The notes below the pieces were generated by a model. That model saw nothing but the letters and a program-made list of their open reading frames with translations, was not told where the DNA came from and ran no database searches. 64,000 nt of DNA from Lysinibacillus sp. FJAT-14745 (lineage in GTDB: Bacteria > Bacillota > Bacilli > Bacillales_A > Planococcaceae): positions 62,001 to 126,000 of the forward strand of contig NZ_LITM01000003.1 of the NCBI RefSeq assembly GCF_001275675.1. Reading direction: 5' to 3'. This document shows positions 26,888-51,845 of this stretch, piece by piece. The translations under genes were made by a program, and so were the position numbers. The first letter of the stretch is position 1; every line of letters starts with the position of its first letter.

Positions 26888-28078
26888 TTGGAACGTGTAG
26901 TTGGTACAGTAGTAAGAGGTCTTCGTGGTCCAATTATTAACGAAGGCGATAATATTGAGCAAATCGTTGTTGATACGGTATTAAATGCAGCAAAGACTGA
27001 AGGCTATTCCATTGAAGATCGTGACATTGTCACAGTAACAGAATCTGTCGTAGCGCGTGCACAAGGTAACTATGCATCCATTGATGACATCGCAACTGAC
27101 GTAGCTGCTAAATTTGGTGACGATACTGTTGGTGTTATTTTCCCAATTCTAAGCCGTAATCGTTTCGCTAACTGCTTACGTGGTATTGCTAAAGGCGTAA
27201 AAAAAGTTGTACTTATGCTTAGCTACCCATCTGATGAGGTTGGGAATCACCTAGTTGATATCGATGAGCTAGATGTAAAAGGGATTAATCCTTGGACTGA
27301 TACTTTAACAGAGATTGATTTCCGTGAGCATTTCGGCTATAAAAAACATACATTTACAGGTGTAGATTATATTGAATATTATAAAGAACTAATCGAAGCT
27401 GAAGGCGCTTCTTGTGAAGTTATTTTTTCAAATAACCCAAAAACAATTTTAGATTTTACGAAGAGTGTTTTAACTTGTGATATTCATACACGCTTACGTA
27501 CAAAACGTATTTTAATGGCAAATGGCGCTGAAAAAGTATACAGTCTTGATAATATTTTATCTGAATCTAATAATGGTTCAGGCTTTAATGCGGAGTATGG
27601 TCTACTTGGTTCAAATAAAGCTACTGAAGATAGCGTAAAATTATTCCCACATACTTGCCAACCGATTGTTGATGGCATCCAAGCAAAAATCAAAGAGGCT
27701 ACTGGTAAAACAGTTGAAGTAATGGTTTATGGTGATGGTGCATTCAAAGATCCTGTAGGTAAGATTTGGGAGTTAGCTGACCCGGTTGTTTCTCCAGCTT
27801 TCACTGCTGGATTAGATGGCACGCCAAACGAAGTAAAACTAAAATATTTAGCAGATAACGATTTTGCGGATCTTCGTGGCGAAGAATTAAAAGCAGCAAT
27901 TTCTGAGTATATCCAAAACAAAGATGAAGATTTAACTGGGAAAATGGCTGCTCAAGGTACAACGCCTCGTCGTTTAACAGACCTAATTGGCTCTCTTTCA
28001 GACTTAACTTCAGGTTCAGGTGACAAAGGAACACCGATGATTTATATTCAAGGTTATTTCGATAACTATACAAAGTAA
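26888..28078 (+). CDS. Coenzyme F420-0:L-glutamate ligase-like protein
   Basis: A 396-residue soluble protein. The N-terminus VVGTVVRGLRGPIINEGDNIEQIVVDTVLNAAK, the DIVTVTESVVARAQGNYA segment and the RNRFANCLRGIAKGVKKVVLML stretch match the F420 gamma-glutamyl ligase-like family. True F420 synthesis is not expected here, and no cofGH, cofC or F420 enzymes are in view, so it more likely adds an amino acid to another substrate. The start is TTG at 26888 after AAGGAGAG. A strong terminator follows. Confidence 0.75.
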   Translation: MERVVGTVVRGLRGPIINEGDNIEQIVVDTVLNAAKTEGYSIEDRDIVTVTESVVARAQGNYASIDDIATDVAAKFGDDTVGVIFPILSRNRFANCLRGIAKGVKKVVLMLSYPSDEVGNHLVDIDELDVKGINPWTDTLTEIDFREHFGYKKHTFTGVDYIEYYKELIEAEGASCEVIFSNNPKTILDFTKSVLTCDIHTRLRTKRILMANGAEKVYSLDNILSESNNGSGFNAEYGLLGSNKATEDSVKLFPHTCQPIVDGIQAKIKEATGKTVEVMVYGDGAFKDPVGKIWELADPVVSPAFTAGLDGTPNEVKLKYLADNDFADLRGEELKAAISEYIQNKDEDLTGKMAAQGTTPRRLTDLIGSLSDLTSGSGDKGTPMIYIQGYFDNYTK

Positions 28079-28088
28079 AAAGCTATAA

Positions 28089-28124
28089 AAAAGAACGCCC
28101 ATTTTACATTATGGGCGTTCTTTT
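28089..28124 (+). terminator. Terminator of the F420-ligase-like gene
   Basis: AAAAGAACGCCCAT pairs exactly with ATGGGCGTTCTTTT across an eight-base loop, with the closing T tract. It ends the plus-strand gene. Confidence 0.88.
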
Positions 28125-28210
28125 ATTAAAAGTGAACCTGCTTCAATGTCGACGCTATGTCCACAAAATTGCAAACAGGTAAACCCCTTTTTTCAATTAT
28201 GTCATTTAGT

Positions 28211-28284
28211 GAGGATGACAGGAATCGAACCTGTAAGACCCTATTCTGTAAAGAGAGGGACACGCTGCCATTGCATACTTCCTC
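28211..28284 (-). ncRNA. tRNA-like RNA downstream of the RNA ligase gene
   Basis: The minus strand folds as a tRNA-like 74-mer. The acceptor arms are GAGGAAG and CATCCTC (six of seven pairs). The T arm is perfect, ACAGG-TTCGATT-CCTGT. The D arm is TGC-AATGGCA-GCG, with the conserved GG in its loop. The anticodon arm is abnormal: a CCCT/AGGG stem encloses 13 bases (or continues as TCT/AGA around TTAC), about four bases longer than normal, so no ordinary seven-base anticodon loop forms. CCA is not encoded. It lies 96 bases beyond the RNA ligase stop on the same strand. It could also be a decayed tRNA. Confidence 0.5.
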
Positions 28285-28380
28285 ATATTCATTATTTATT
28301 ATTTATTATTAATTTCATGTATAGAATTACATTGTTCTCAGTCCTTTTTTTATAGTAGATTCAATCTTTTCAAATAAAGC

Positions 28381-29016
28381 TTATTTCAATTGATTAGGAA
28401 TCACTTCTTCATTTAACCAATGCTCGCTTGTTCGAACATGATTCTGTCTCACAAATTTCCCTAGATTATATCGAAAATCATCATAATGGAAGGCAGTCGC
28501 GTTTCTAATAACATACCCTTCCTGCTCACCCCCAAGAAGTGATTTCCCTGTAAACGTCTTCTTTATTTTTTCTTCATCGAAAATGCCTCGATATAATACA
28601 GGTACCGTTTTAATCCCCCATTCAGCTGCATAATGGACTGTTTCATCCCAGCTCAAGCAAATATTTTTTTCATTCCAAATACTAAATAAATAAAAATAAC
28701 TAGTTAACTCATTGTAGTAAATGGAGTGCTTGGCATAAACATTTTCACCACATAATCTCCAGCCTTCTGGAATCTGGAATGCAAATGTAGCATGAAACGT
28801 TTTCACCCAATGCCTCGACGGATGATCTCCTGAATTTAAGCTTCTAGCATGCATATAGTTTTGATAAAGTGTTGTTCCTTCCCCGTCTAATTTTTCGGTT
28901 ACAACAACCTCTTTTCCAATAAAATGATCAACATTTTTAGCAACCTTGTCATCATGTGTATACCCTCTACTCCACGGCAAATGAAAGCTTCTTGGATATT
29001 TCATCAAATTGGTCAT
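28381..29016 (-). CDS. ATP-dependent RNA ligase, single-domain
   Basis: Predicted to seal 5'-phosphate to 3'-hydroxyl RNA ends through a covalent lysyl-AMP. The 211-residue protein has nucleotidyltransferase motif I at K42 (VTEKLDGEGTT), a motif III-like RLCGENVYAKHSIYY, motif IV EGYVIRNA and a motif V-like GKFVRQNH. There is no large C-terminal domain, so it is a minimal Rnl-type enzyme. AAAGGAAGTGAG precedes the ATG. It lies 23 bases after the kinase gene, in the order kinase-ligase that would heal and then seal a broken RNA. Confidence 0.85.
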   Translation of the reverse strand: MTNLMKYPRSFHLPWSRGYTHDDKVAKNVDHFIGKEVVVTEKLDGEGTTLYQNYMHARSLNSGDHPSRHWVKTFHATFAFQIPEGWRLCGENVYAKHSIYYNELTSYFYLFSIWNEKNICLSWDETVHYAAEWGIKTVPVLYRGIFDEEKIKKTFTGKSLLGGEQEGYVIRNATAFHYDDFRYNLGKFVRQNHVRTSEHWLNEEVIPNQLK

Positions 29017-29039
29017 AAACTCACTTCCTTTGTCTACAT

Positions 29040-29996
29040 CTACTTCGCAAATTGATCTGCTTCACGAAAGAAATAAAGCTTTGTTAATAAGTCACCATCT
29101 AATAAATGATAAATCTTACTTGATCCCCTATCACCCCCATATTGAATTAACATATGAAATTGTACTAGATTAACAACCTTTAAAACAAAGTCTTCTTCAA
29201 AGCCAAGCTCTAATAAAAAATGGCATACCATTTGAGCAGATACATTTTCATGGCCATAATATCCATATCTCTGTTGTAATTCTTTATATTTTTTACAAAA
29301 CGGTTTGCCTACATCATGGAATAAAGCAGCTATTTGTAGCGCTAACTTGTCACTCTCCATATAGTATTCGTTCATATAGTCATAAACAAAATACGTATGC
29401 TGGCAAAGTAAAAATTGATGATAAGGATTTTCTTGATTAAATCGATAAATTTCTTTAAATGGTTGGACTGATCTTAACTTTTGAAAAAGCTCCTCATATG
29501 TGGGTTGGCTCTGGATTAGTGAAATAAATTGCTCTTTTGAGATTTCATATGGACTCGTTTCATGTACAATATGCACCTCTTCAAATCCTTCTCCCAATAT
29601 CGGAAACTCTAAATTCTTTCTCATCTTTTCCATTATCACTAACGGAACCTTCCTCTTTCTTTGCTGATTCCTTGTTACACATAACGCATAAGGTGTATCA
29701 AAATAATAGCATAAAACTTTCACACCATCCGACAATTTACCTACCGTAAACATCCTGCGTTCTCGTTCGATATTTGTCGCATCAACAATAACAGATTGTC
29801 CTTTAGCTACACATTCGTTCAAACGCTCATACAAAACACGGAATACTATTCGTGAATTCTGCCTTGTAGCGTCACCGAATAACTCTTGACGTATGGCATC
29901 ACTTGAAAGAATAAGCGCATTTTCGCTTTTTGCTAGCCCCTTAACAAACGTGCTCTTGCCACTCCCAGGTAACCCAACCGTAAATATCACCTTCAT
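29040..29996 (-). CDS. Polynucleotide kinase fused to an HD phosphohydrolase domain
   Basis: A 318-residue bifunctional protein. Residues 1-150 are a P-loop kinase with Walker A VGLPGSGKSTF (G8-T16), SSDAIRQELFGD and VDATNIERERR, as in T4-type polynucleotide 5'-kinases. Residues about 195-318 hold an HD domain (HTYFVYDYMN, ALFHDVGKPFCKKY, GHENVSAQ), which could remove 2',3'-cyclic or 3'-phosphates. The ATG at 29996 lies directly after GGGGGTGAG; the in-frame TTG at 30014 is rejected. A TTGCTA-17-TATAAA promoter is at 30027-30055. With the ligase it forms a candidate RNA end-healing operon. Confidence 0.8.
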   Translation of the reverse strand: MKVIFTVGLPGSGKSTFVKGLAKSENALILSSDAIRQELFGDATRQNSRIVFRVLYERLNECVAKGQSVIVDATNIERERRMFTVGKLSDGVKVLCYYFDTPYALCVTRNQQRKRKVPLVIMEKMRKNLEFPILGEGFEEVHIVHETSPYEISKEQFISLIQSQPTYEELFQKLRSVQPFKEIYRFNQENPYHQFLLCQHTYFVYDYMNEYYMESDKLALQIAALFHDVGKPFCKKYKELQQRYGYYGHENVSAQMVCHFLLELGFEEDFVLKVVNLVQFHMLIQYGGDRGSSKIYHLLDGDLLTKLYFFREADQFAK

Positions 29997-30026
29997 TTTC
30001 TCACCCCCTTTCAAGTATCTATATCG

Positions 30027-30055
30027 TTTATAGAAACATATTCTTTAGTTAGCAA
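30027..30055 (-). promoter_or_regulatory. Sigma-A promoter of the kinase-ligase operon
   Basis: On the minus strand -35 TTGCTA (30050-30055) and -10 TATAAA (30027-30032) are separated by 17 bases, about 30 bases upstream of the start codon. No operator is evident. Confidence 0.6.
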
Positions 30056-30184: not shown

Positions 30185-30480
30185 CGTACACCATGAATAT
30201 AAGTTGGTCGGTGCAGAACTGGGCGACTCCTCGGGTCACAGTTGAGCCCCCGAAGCGAGTACGGGACCGGAGATTAAGAACACCACACCCTGTGATAACA
30301 CCTTCGTTAACCAACATCACATTGCTGTCGCTTCGCTTTCACATAGAGAAAACATTTGCTGCCGACGCTGCGTTAGCTCTTCACTTTCGCACAGAAAACA
30401 CTTATCAACCCAAGCGACTCATCCGACGCCCCAAAAACACCCAGCCAGAACAAAGATCAGCTTATATACACGATGTCACA
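30185..30480. repeat. Dispersed intergenic repeat, copy 2 (inverted and degenerate)
   Basis: The plus strand reads GTTGGTC...CTGGGCGACTCC, ...CCTGTGATAACACCTTCG and TGTCGCTTCGCTTTCAC, words that appear on the opposite strand at 51523-51845. Frames through it are open by chance but there is no ribosome binding site. It fills most of the 700-base gap between the kinase and helD genes. Confidence 0.65.
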
Positions 30481-51522: not shown

Positions 51523-51845
51523 CCATAACGTGGGGTTGATTTCCGTTCCGACTGGGCGCTTTGTTGCTGACGCTTCGCTTTCGCACAGATAAAACATTTG
51601 CCGCTGACGCTTCGCTTTCGCGCAGAGCAGAGCTTCCTGGGGGCGTCCGATGAGCCGCTTTTGTTGCTGCCGCTACGTTAGCACTACGCTTTCGCACAGA
51701 AAACATTCGCTTCGCTGCAGGGTCTCGGGGCAACAGGATGTTGGTCACGAAGGCGTTATCACAGGACGTGATGCTTTTAGCCTTCGTTCCTCTATTGCTA
51801 ATCCCCAAGGAGTCGCCCAGCCTCCACTACAATCAACTTTTATTC
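51523..51845. repeat. Dispersed intergenic repeat, copy 5 (long form)
   Basis: Starts CACCATAACGTGGGGTTGAT and TTCCGTTCCGACTGGGCG and ends AAGGAGTCGCCCAGCCTCC, ACTACAATCAACTTTTATTC. GTTGAT/ATCAAC and CTGGGCG/CGCCCAG are outer inverted arms. Inside are two to three copies of GACGCTTCGCTTTCGC. It fills most of the 607-base gap between the kinase and endopeptidase genes and contains no credible gene. Confidence 0.75.

Follow-up and report, generated by a model that had tools for sequence, protein, structure and literature searches.

A two-gene RNA-repair operon of Bacilli with a candidate start-stop regulatory element and, in Lysinibacillus, an added tRNA-like RNA

The repair operon and its surroundings

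The window analysed here, a stretch of 64,000 nucleotides from Lysinibacillus sp. FJAT-14745, carries on its minus strand two adjacent genes implicated in RNA repair. The upstream gene (29040-29996 (-)) encodes a protein of 318 aa, counted from the ATG at 29996, with an N-terminal P-loop domain similar to 5'-OH polynucleotide kinases and a C-terminal HD domain; the open reading frame spans 29040-30014 (-), and the TTG at 30014 is an alternative to the probable ATG start. The downstream gene (28381-29016 (-)) encodes an RNA ligase of 211 aa that consists of the nucleotidyltransferase domain only. Past the ligase gene, on the same strand, lies a start-stop mini-cistron (28327-28347 (-)), in which a Shine-Dalgarno (SD) sequence, AAAGGA (28342-28347), precedes AUGUAA (28327-28332). 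The start-stop is contained in a 22-nt block, GGACTGAGAAcAATGTAATtCT (28323-28344 (-)). Further downstream is a tRNA-like RNA (28209-28284 (-)), detected by ARAGORN, by its Rfam score and by conservation across the genus; the gap of 96 bases between the ligase stop and position 28284, on the same strand, is as originally predicted. An inverted repeat with T runs, read in the sequence by eye at 28093-28120 with no strand assigned, is probably a two-way terminator that separates the repair operon from a convergent ORF ending at 28078.

The operon was also predicted to have its own promoter, and a sigma-D-like site, TAAA-N15-AACGATAT, is present at 30021-30047 (-), kept as TAAA-N15-nnCGATA in 13 of the 17 Lysinibacillus loci; the label follows the general sigma-D consensus. 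Such a promoter might tie RNA repair to the motility regulon. Elsewhere in the window, the Bacillaceae-1 RNA of Rfam has a match at 51730-51796 (-), and the segment at ~30190-30420, just upstream of the repair operon, resembles this RNA by eye and is possibly a degenerate copy.

In the kinase-HD protein, Pfam detects AAA_33 at residues 9-138 (1.7e-25) and HD at residues 205-288 (2.5e-7), and the domain order is thus kinase followed by HD. Profile searches match the kinase part to chain 4gp7 (1.8e-17), which is labelled Metallophosphoesterase and which we take to be the kinase of C. thermocellum Pnkp, to T4 PNK (1ltq, 1.7e-10) and to L-seryl-tRNA(Sec) kinase. The HD part matches 3wfp (1.7e-8), its profile matches being chains labelled poly A polymerase. 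The GxxxSGK, SxD..R and HD.GK motifs are invariant in 17 aligned sequences. The ligase matches PF09414 (RNA_ligase, 2.8e-33 in Pfam) and contains KLDGEG and EGYVIR; KxDGE, EG and K187 are invariant among 17 aligned sequences, including two viral ones and one from Pleionea, and the best hit among solved structures is a weak match to RNA ligase chains, including that of Naegleria (0.041). All three domains, with their catalytic motifs, are encoded by adjacent genes, and the best reading of the locus is a heal-and-seal RNA-repair operon, with catalysis predicted from these matches. At the domain level, the original prediction of a P-loop kinase fused to an HD domain, of a minimal RNA ligase with its motifs, and of the three activities as a heal-and-seal set is borne out.

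Distribution of the kinase-HD/ligase pair

Among 32 Lysinibacillus genomes, 17 encode a full-length ligase, 5 retain remnants, in all of which the kinase is broken as well, and 10 are without. Beyond Lysinibacillus, the pair recurs in other families as well as in the sister genera g37 and g35. The set analysed here comprises 58 full-length ligase loci (17 in Lysinibacillus, 3 in g37, 2 in g35, 13 in g27, 21 in family f3 and 2 in g16), and in each of them the kinase-HD gene is just upstream of the ligase gene. The class-wide and f3 searches are samples of 398 and 245 genomes, respectively. Some counts below refer to a set of 59 loci, which includes L098 (the last half of a ligase only, with no kinase match) in addition to the 58. 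Both sets leave out G245 (one stop), G094, the Lysinibacillus remnants (G018, G023, G025, G028 and G030), the fragments L099 and L106, the longer ligases of low identity (L100-L105, L107, L175 and L176) and matches without a locus. Two Lysinibacillus loci, L008 and L009, have identical downstream regions; both belong to the 58, and L009 is excluded from the 16 Lysinibacillus loci used for identity comparisons.

Of 50,697 phage records, 34 encode a related ligase at 29-54% identity (two of the 34 are Bacillus phage Troll, with a ligase identity of 27%), and many of these records come from large phages; related ligases are also encoded in 66 plasmid records. A different arrangement occurs in Pleionea (L029, 4001-6292), where this ligase is followed by HD and kinase matches and then by a second, distant ligase match.

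The start-stop mini-cistron

The most general feature of the loci that carry the pair, absent from the original account, is the start-stop mini-cistron. An SD followed by an AUG directly abutting UAA, at most ~90 nt past the ligase stop, is found in 54 of the 58 full-length loci, in 10 of 11 genera and in three families. In the 100 nt that follow the ligase gene, no hexamer is commoner than ATGTAA, which occurs in 55 of the 59 loci and in 11 of the 12 genera (L098 included). With its AUG abutting a stop codon and its ribosome-loading signals, the element has, as far as sequence can tell, the makeup of an AUG-stop minimum ORF. In g37, the block is present without the tRNA-like RNA and consists of an SD and then ATGTAA; the same arrangement was seen in g35, g27, g66 and f3 as the set of loci was widened, including all 20 new loci of f3, where it comes with several different spacers. 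The start-stop is kept where the identity of the ligase to that of the window is down to ~60%. Over the 16 Lysinibacillus loci, the 22-nt block has a mean pairwise identity of 0.95, and its single match in its own genome, at up to 2 mismatches, speaks against a repeated genomic motif.

The remaining loci differ in several ways. Two g27 loci (L094 and L095) have no downstream copy and carry SD-ATGTAA in the 5' leader of the kinase gene, and two g16 loci (L082 and L083) contain the pair with no SD start-stop within 120 nt downstream. No SD start-stop with an energy of -7 or better occurs anywhere in L083 or in the 14-kb L140; in L083, an ATGTAA without an SD precedes the kinase gene. In L012, the lowest-energy site is a nearby ATGTGA, and the ATGTAA that is also present is the one counted in the hexamer tally.

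In a control set of 297 mechanically defined non-ligase ORFs of at least 120 aa, from the window and 14 loci, 4 have a comparable site, of which 3 are the same element and 1 is an ATGTGA, leaving 1 in 294. A point against the proposed role of the start-stop is that an ATG-stop within 120 nt is missing at 14 of 15 distant ligase loci (phage, Deinococcus, Pseudomonas and others); the remaining one has an ATGTAA with a weak SD (-3.3).

Similar motifs elsewhere also count against it: those in g16 and in two viral contigs belong to a leader element of prophages, and the others checked lie inside ORFs or are unexplained. A near-identical motif, AAGAAAGGRATGAGRACNATGTAAC, with conserved flanks, lies in or near prophages in L148 (1590-1609), L149 (1525-1544), L150 (1368-1387), L153 and L154; in L154, it precedes a small ORF, and the prophage motif may put a start-stop or short ORF to a use of its own.

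The geometry of the element is that of a ribosome-binding site. Directly before the ATG, the SD pairing energy averages -10.4 kcal/mol (range -6.7 to -15.6), compared with -2.4 to -4.4 in six other windows and -6.9 for shuffled 20-mers; because the shuffled sequences reach this value, purine content explains part of the energy, not all of it. In 53 of 55 loci, the SD stands at a normalised distance of 7 or 8 nt (the exceptions are L064 and L065), and a U follows the UAA in 52 of 55. Among families, the spacer sequence varies, and the SD, the spacing and AUGUAA are constant. The SD of the window itself, at -6.8, is one of the weakest found and would be unremarkable alone, given a mean of -3.6 over all 98 ATG-stop sites of the window, 32% of which reach -5. 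Folding predictions give the SD-AUG stretch no greater openness than its flanks (0.52 vs 0.49, higher in 32 of 55). Read-through of the UAA was considered and rejected, the frame that follows being short (median 10 codons).

The tRNA-like RNA of Lysinibacillus

ARAGORN calls the tRNA-like RNA of the window tRNA-Cys(aca). Its Rfam tRNA score of 28.7 bits falls below the cut-off of 29, and it is therefore unlisted at the gathering score; no Rfam Y RNA family was found for 28080-28480 at E<=1. A model, R1, that comprises the block, the linker and the tRNA-like RNA and was built from 12 of the Lysinibacillus loci finds the RNA in 21 of the 32 Lysinibacillus genomes, namely all 17 with a full-length ligase and 4 of the 5 with remnants. 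Every match in the genus adjoins a ligase or ligase remnant, and R1 finds no tRNA-like RNA in the 10 genomes that have neither. The mean pairwise identity of the tRNA-like part over 16 loci is 0.758, against 0.38 before the block, 0.565 in the linker, 0.46 downstream and 0.525 at the 4-fold sites of the ligase gene. These comparisons support selection on the tRNA-like RNA beside the repair genes within Lysinibacillus.

The kept parts are the acceptor, the GG of the D loop and the T arm (UUCGAUU in the window), that is, the parts that form the elbow of a canonical tRNA. Among the aligned cloverleaf cells, 93.8% are paired (85 of 85 in the T stem, 90.2% in the acceptor and 92.6% in the D stem). 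The anticodon arm is degenerate, with 4 to 15 nt between CCC and GGG across the 17 loci; in about half of them a 7-nt loop could be formed, by eye, with a fourth U-A pair, and the would-be anticodons differ, so that there is no conserved 7-nt anticodon loop or anticodon of the canonical kind. The RNA also lacks an encoded CCA, compared with a CCA ending in 28 of the 36 distinct own tRNA sequences. Because the anticodon arm is not conserved and CCA is not encoded, decoding is an unlikely role. When five query copies of the tRNA-like RNA were compared with these 36 ARAGORN sequences, drawn from 30 of the 65 own tRNA matches, four came closest to Val(UAC) (with two Val sequences tied for L013) and one to Gly(GCC).

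Outside the genus, R1 matches in G169, G170 and G171 were dropped as ordinary tRNA-Gly by eye. No tRNA-like RNA was found at the 41 full-length pairs outside Lysinibacillus, with flanks of ~1.5 kb or more, when the g37 and g35 loci and the other 36 were all searched with R1, with Rfam at E<=1 and with ARAGORN; the sole R1 match among the 36 (L090, 18.4 bits) is at the block. The absence of ARAGORN calls is weak evidence because ARAGORN detects only 4 of the 17 Lysinibacillus copies. By its distribution, the tRNA-like RNA is a lineage-specific addition in Lysinibacillus. The original prediction, in which this RNA was a substrate, guide or decoy for the enzymes, fits selection beside them in this genus and cannot be general, given that none was found at the 41 pairs elsewhere; similarly, the expected adjacency of pair and RNA holds at 17 of 17 full-length Lysinibacillus loci and at 0 of 41 others.

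We lean towards the view that the Lysinibacillus RNA is a functional small RNA. The alternative, that the tRNA-like sequence is a mere processing signal for RNase P or RNase Z, or a decaying tRNA copy with no role in repair, is less probable. In its favour, the sequence is confined to one genus, the parts conserved in it, the acceptor and the T arm, are the ones that RNase P and RNase Z read, and CCA is missing. Covariation gives little to judge by: a double change is seen at one of the 19 pairs, and three of the six acceptor pairs and four of the five T-stem pairs are invariant. Among the remnant genomes, G018, G023 and G028 have changes at conserved T-arm or acceptor positions; G023, with its enzymes badly decayed, still has a well-kept RNA (81.6 bits with R1 vs 88.1 for that of the window), which favours this alternative. 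Against this alternative stand the identity of 0.758, well above the 0.38-0.57 of flanks and 4-fold sites, and the fact that, in 32 genomes, the RNA was never found without the ligase or its remnant.

A possible mechanism and its alternatives

The observations on domains, conservation, ribosome-binding geometry, co-occurrence and enzyme decay in remnant loci provide the basis on which we infer catalysis, ribosome loading, regulatory output and RNA release. At a broken RNA, the HD domain would clear 2',3'-cyclic or 3'/2'-phosphate ends, the kinase would phosphorylate 5'-OH ends, and the ligase would seal the ends with ATP. Initiating ribosomes would bind SD-AUG-UAA, usually just past the ligase gene. 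A ribosome at the start-stop would hold fMet-tRNA in the P site and the stop codon in the A site and would thus need no elongator tRNA; the element would test only the 30S subunit with its anti-SD, the initiator tRNA, the decoding centre and the release factors. Under attack by a nuclease that cuts elongator tRNAs, the start-stop would still be translatable, whereas with damaged 16S rRNA it would not. The dwell time of the ribosome at the start-stop would then decide whether the operon mRNA decays or survives, and repair would thereby be tuned to ribosome damage. A 3' location cannot directly control the translation of the two genes, which leaves mRNA stability or an effect in trans as the output, a choice that is guesswork on our part; the presence of the start-stop in the 5' leader of two loci is in keeping with an output that acts on the mRNA as a whole. 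Behind the start-stop, Lysinibacillus would have gained an RNA derived from a tRNA, with the elbow and acceptor kept and no conserved anticodon; this small RNA is probably excised and would bind either the repair enzymes or a nuclease.

The components of this scheme differ in standing. In general terms, the start-stop is likely to be a translated regulatory element. With slightly more belief than doubt, we hold that the locus combines a repair operon, a ribosome-loading start-stop that sets mRNA fate and, in Lysinibacillus, an added tRNA-derived RNA. That the output of the start-stop is that of a ribosome sensor is a tentative proposal, and we are comparably hesitant about the full scheme, in which, in at least three families of Bacilli, the start-stop serves as a one-codon test of initiation and termination that controls repair, and Lysinibacillus adds a non-decoding tRNA derivative acting with the enzymes.

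RNase J roadblocks occur at SDs, and the start-stop could be a ribosome roadblock of the stabilising-SD kind, which halts this 5'-3' exonuclease and shields the RNA behind it with no sensing involved. An SD precedes the ATG throughout, and structured RNA lies behind it in Lysinibacillus, as does a conserved hairpin, seen by eye, in g27 and g66. We nevertheless consider a roadblock unlikely: it requires an SD and not the exact AUG-UAA, the searches behind the start-stop in the f3, g37 and g35 loci revealed neither a known RNA nor a tRNA-like one, and two loci carry the start-stop in the 5' leader. The hairpin itself (for example, ATAGAGTATCCAAAATTCATTTTGGCTATTGTTAAG; L084-L089, L091-L093 and L098) lies ~30-75 nt past the start-stop ATG, in the position that the tRNA-like RNA occupies in Lysinibacillus.

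Somewhat less probable still is a role as bait for ribosome-dependent nucleases of the RelE/YoeB type, which cut stop codons in the A site, whereby cutting or resealing of the operon's own 3' UTR would be the feedback signal. RelE-type enzymes prefer a vacant A site that contains a stop codon, and their cut would leave cyclic-phosphate and 5'-OH ends that fit the kinase/HD/ligase set, but here the cut would fall outside both coding regions. Finally, it is very improbable that ATGTAAT is a DNA element, such as the -10 box of a downstream small RNA, with an incidental purine run: TGTAAT, present in 52 of 59 loci, has 5 of the 6 bases of the TATAAT consensus, but 55 of 59 have ATGTAA itself, pairing of the purine run with the anti-SD falls at ribosomal spacing in 53 of 55, and no conserved -35 element is seen, and a promoter was for these reasons rejected as the main reading of the block.

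Returning to the translated start-stop, its recurrence after the repair operon in genus upon genus suggests that the cell may control RNA repair via the ribosome itself. For Rtc, there is only a partial understanding of how bacteria detect a damaged translation apparatus and turn on RNA repair; if the proposal is true, hardly more than a ribosome-binding site, an AUG and a UAA would make up a minimal sensor with the ribosome as its direct input. The tRNA-like RNA, in turn, is a candidate partner for a ligase branch that is also found in Deinococcus and large phages.

Comparison with known systems

T4 Pnkp and Rnl1 repair tRNA by healing and sealing. The window operon shares this logic, and its kinase domain matches T4 PNK, but its phosphatase part is an HD domain and its ligase is a minimal PF09414 protein. 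HD-Pnk of Runella slithyformis combines an HD phosphoesterase and a 5' kinase in one chain, as does the window protein; its order is reportedly HD-kinase, as opposed to kinase-HD in the window.

The window ligase is 48% identical to a Deinococcus radiodurans protein that adjoins a TIGR02452 gene and an AAA ATPase gene; we take these three to be DRB0100, DRB0099 and DRB0098, respectively. The Deinococcus locus has no ATG-stop within 120 nt and no tRNA-like match, both of which are present in the window, and its operon includes a macro-like gene, whereas that of the window consists of two genes only. According to the published description, the DRB0098-DRB0100 operon encodes a kinase/HD protein (Blasius 2007, PMC1997131), in which the HD domain is N-terminal to the kinase, the reverse of the order in the window protein, which is thus not of the DRB0098 type. 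The original statement that the combination could not be named as described accordingly needs qualification: an operon that we take to encode the 48%-identical ligase, along with a kinase/HD protein, is on record, and the combination is not wholly unnamed. In the open-access literature, among the matches listed, neither HD-Pnk with an RNA ligase nor a tRNA-like RNA with an RNA ligase is described in this arrangement, and there is no report of a bacterial AUG-stop element.

The rsr-yrl-rtcBA operon joins repair genes to a tRNA-like noncoding Y RNA (PMC7790460). Both systems are repair operons with a tRNA-like noncoding RNA, but the former employs RtcB/RtcA chemistry, Rsr and a Y RNA, and the window two genes and a plain cloverleaf remnant. 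PrfH releases fMet from ribosomes cleaved by colicin E3, and its operon includes an RNA ligase (PMC9223846). By analogy, RtcB2-PrfH may resemble the present system in linking an RNA ligase to ribosome damage and fMet release; the difference is that a release-factor protein acts there and, in the window, at most a cis element.

A parallel to the start-stop comes from plants. In Arabidopsis NIP5;1, an AUGUAA causes ribosome stalling and mRNA decay (PMC11915504). Both are AUGUAA minimum ORFs in an untranslated region of an mRNA; the plant element lies in the 5' UTR and responds to boron, whereas the window element is bacterial, has an SD and mostly lies 3' of the genes. By this analogy, the start-stop is probably like the plant AUG-stop element, with the fate of the mRNA set by the state of the ribosome, and, if so, would be its bacterial counterpart.
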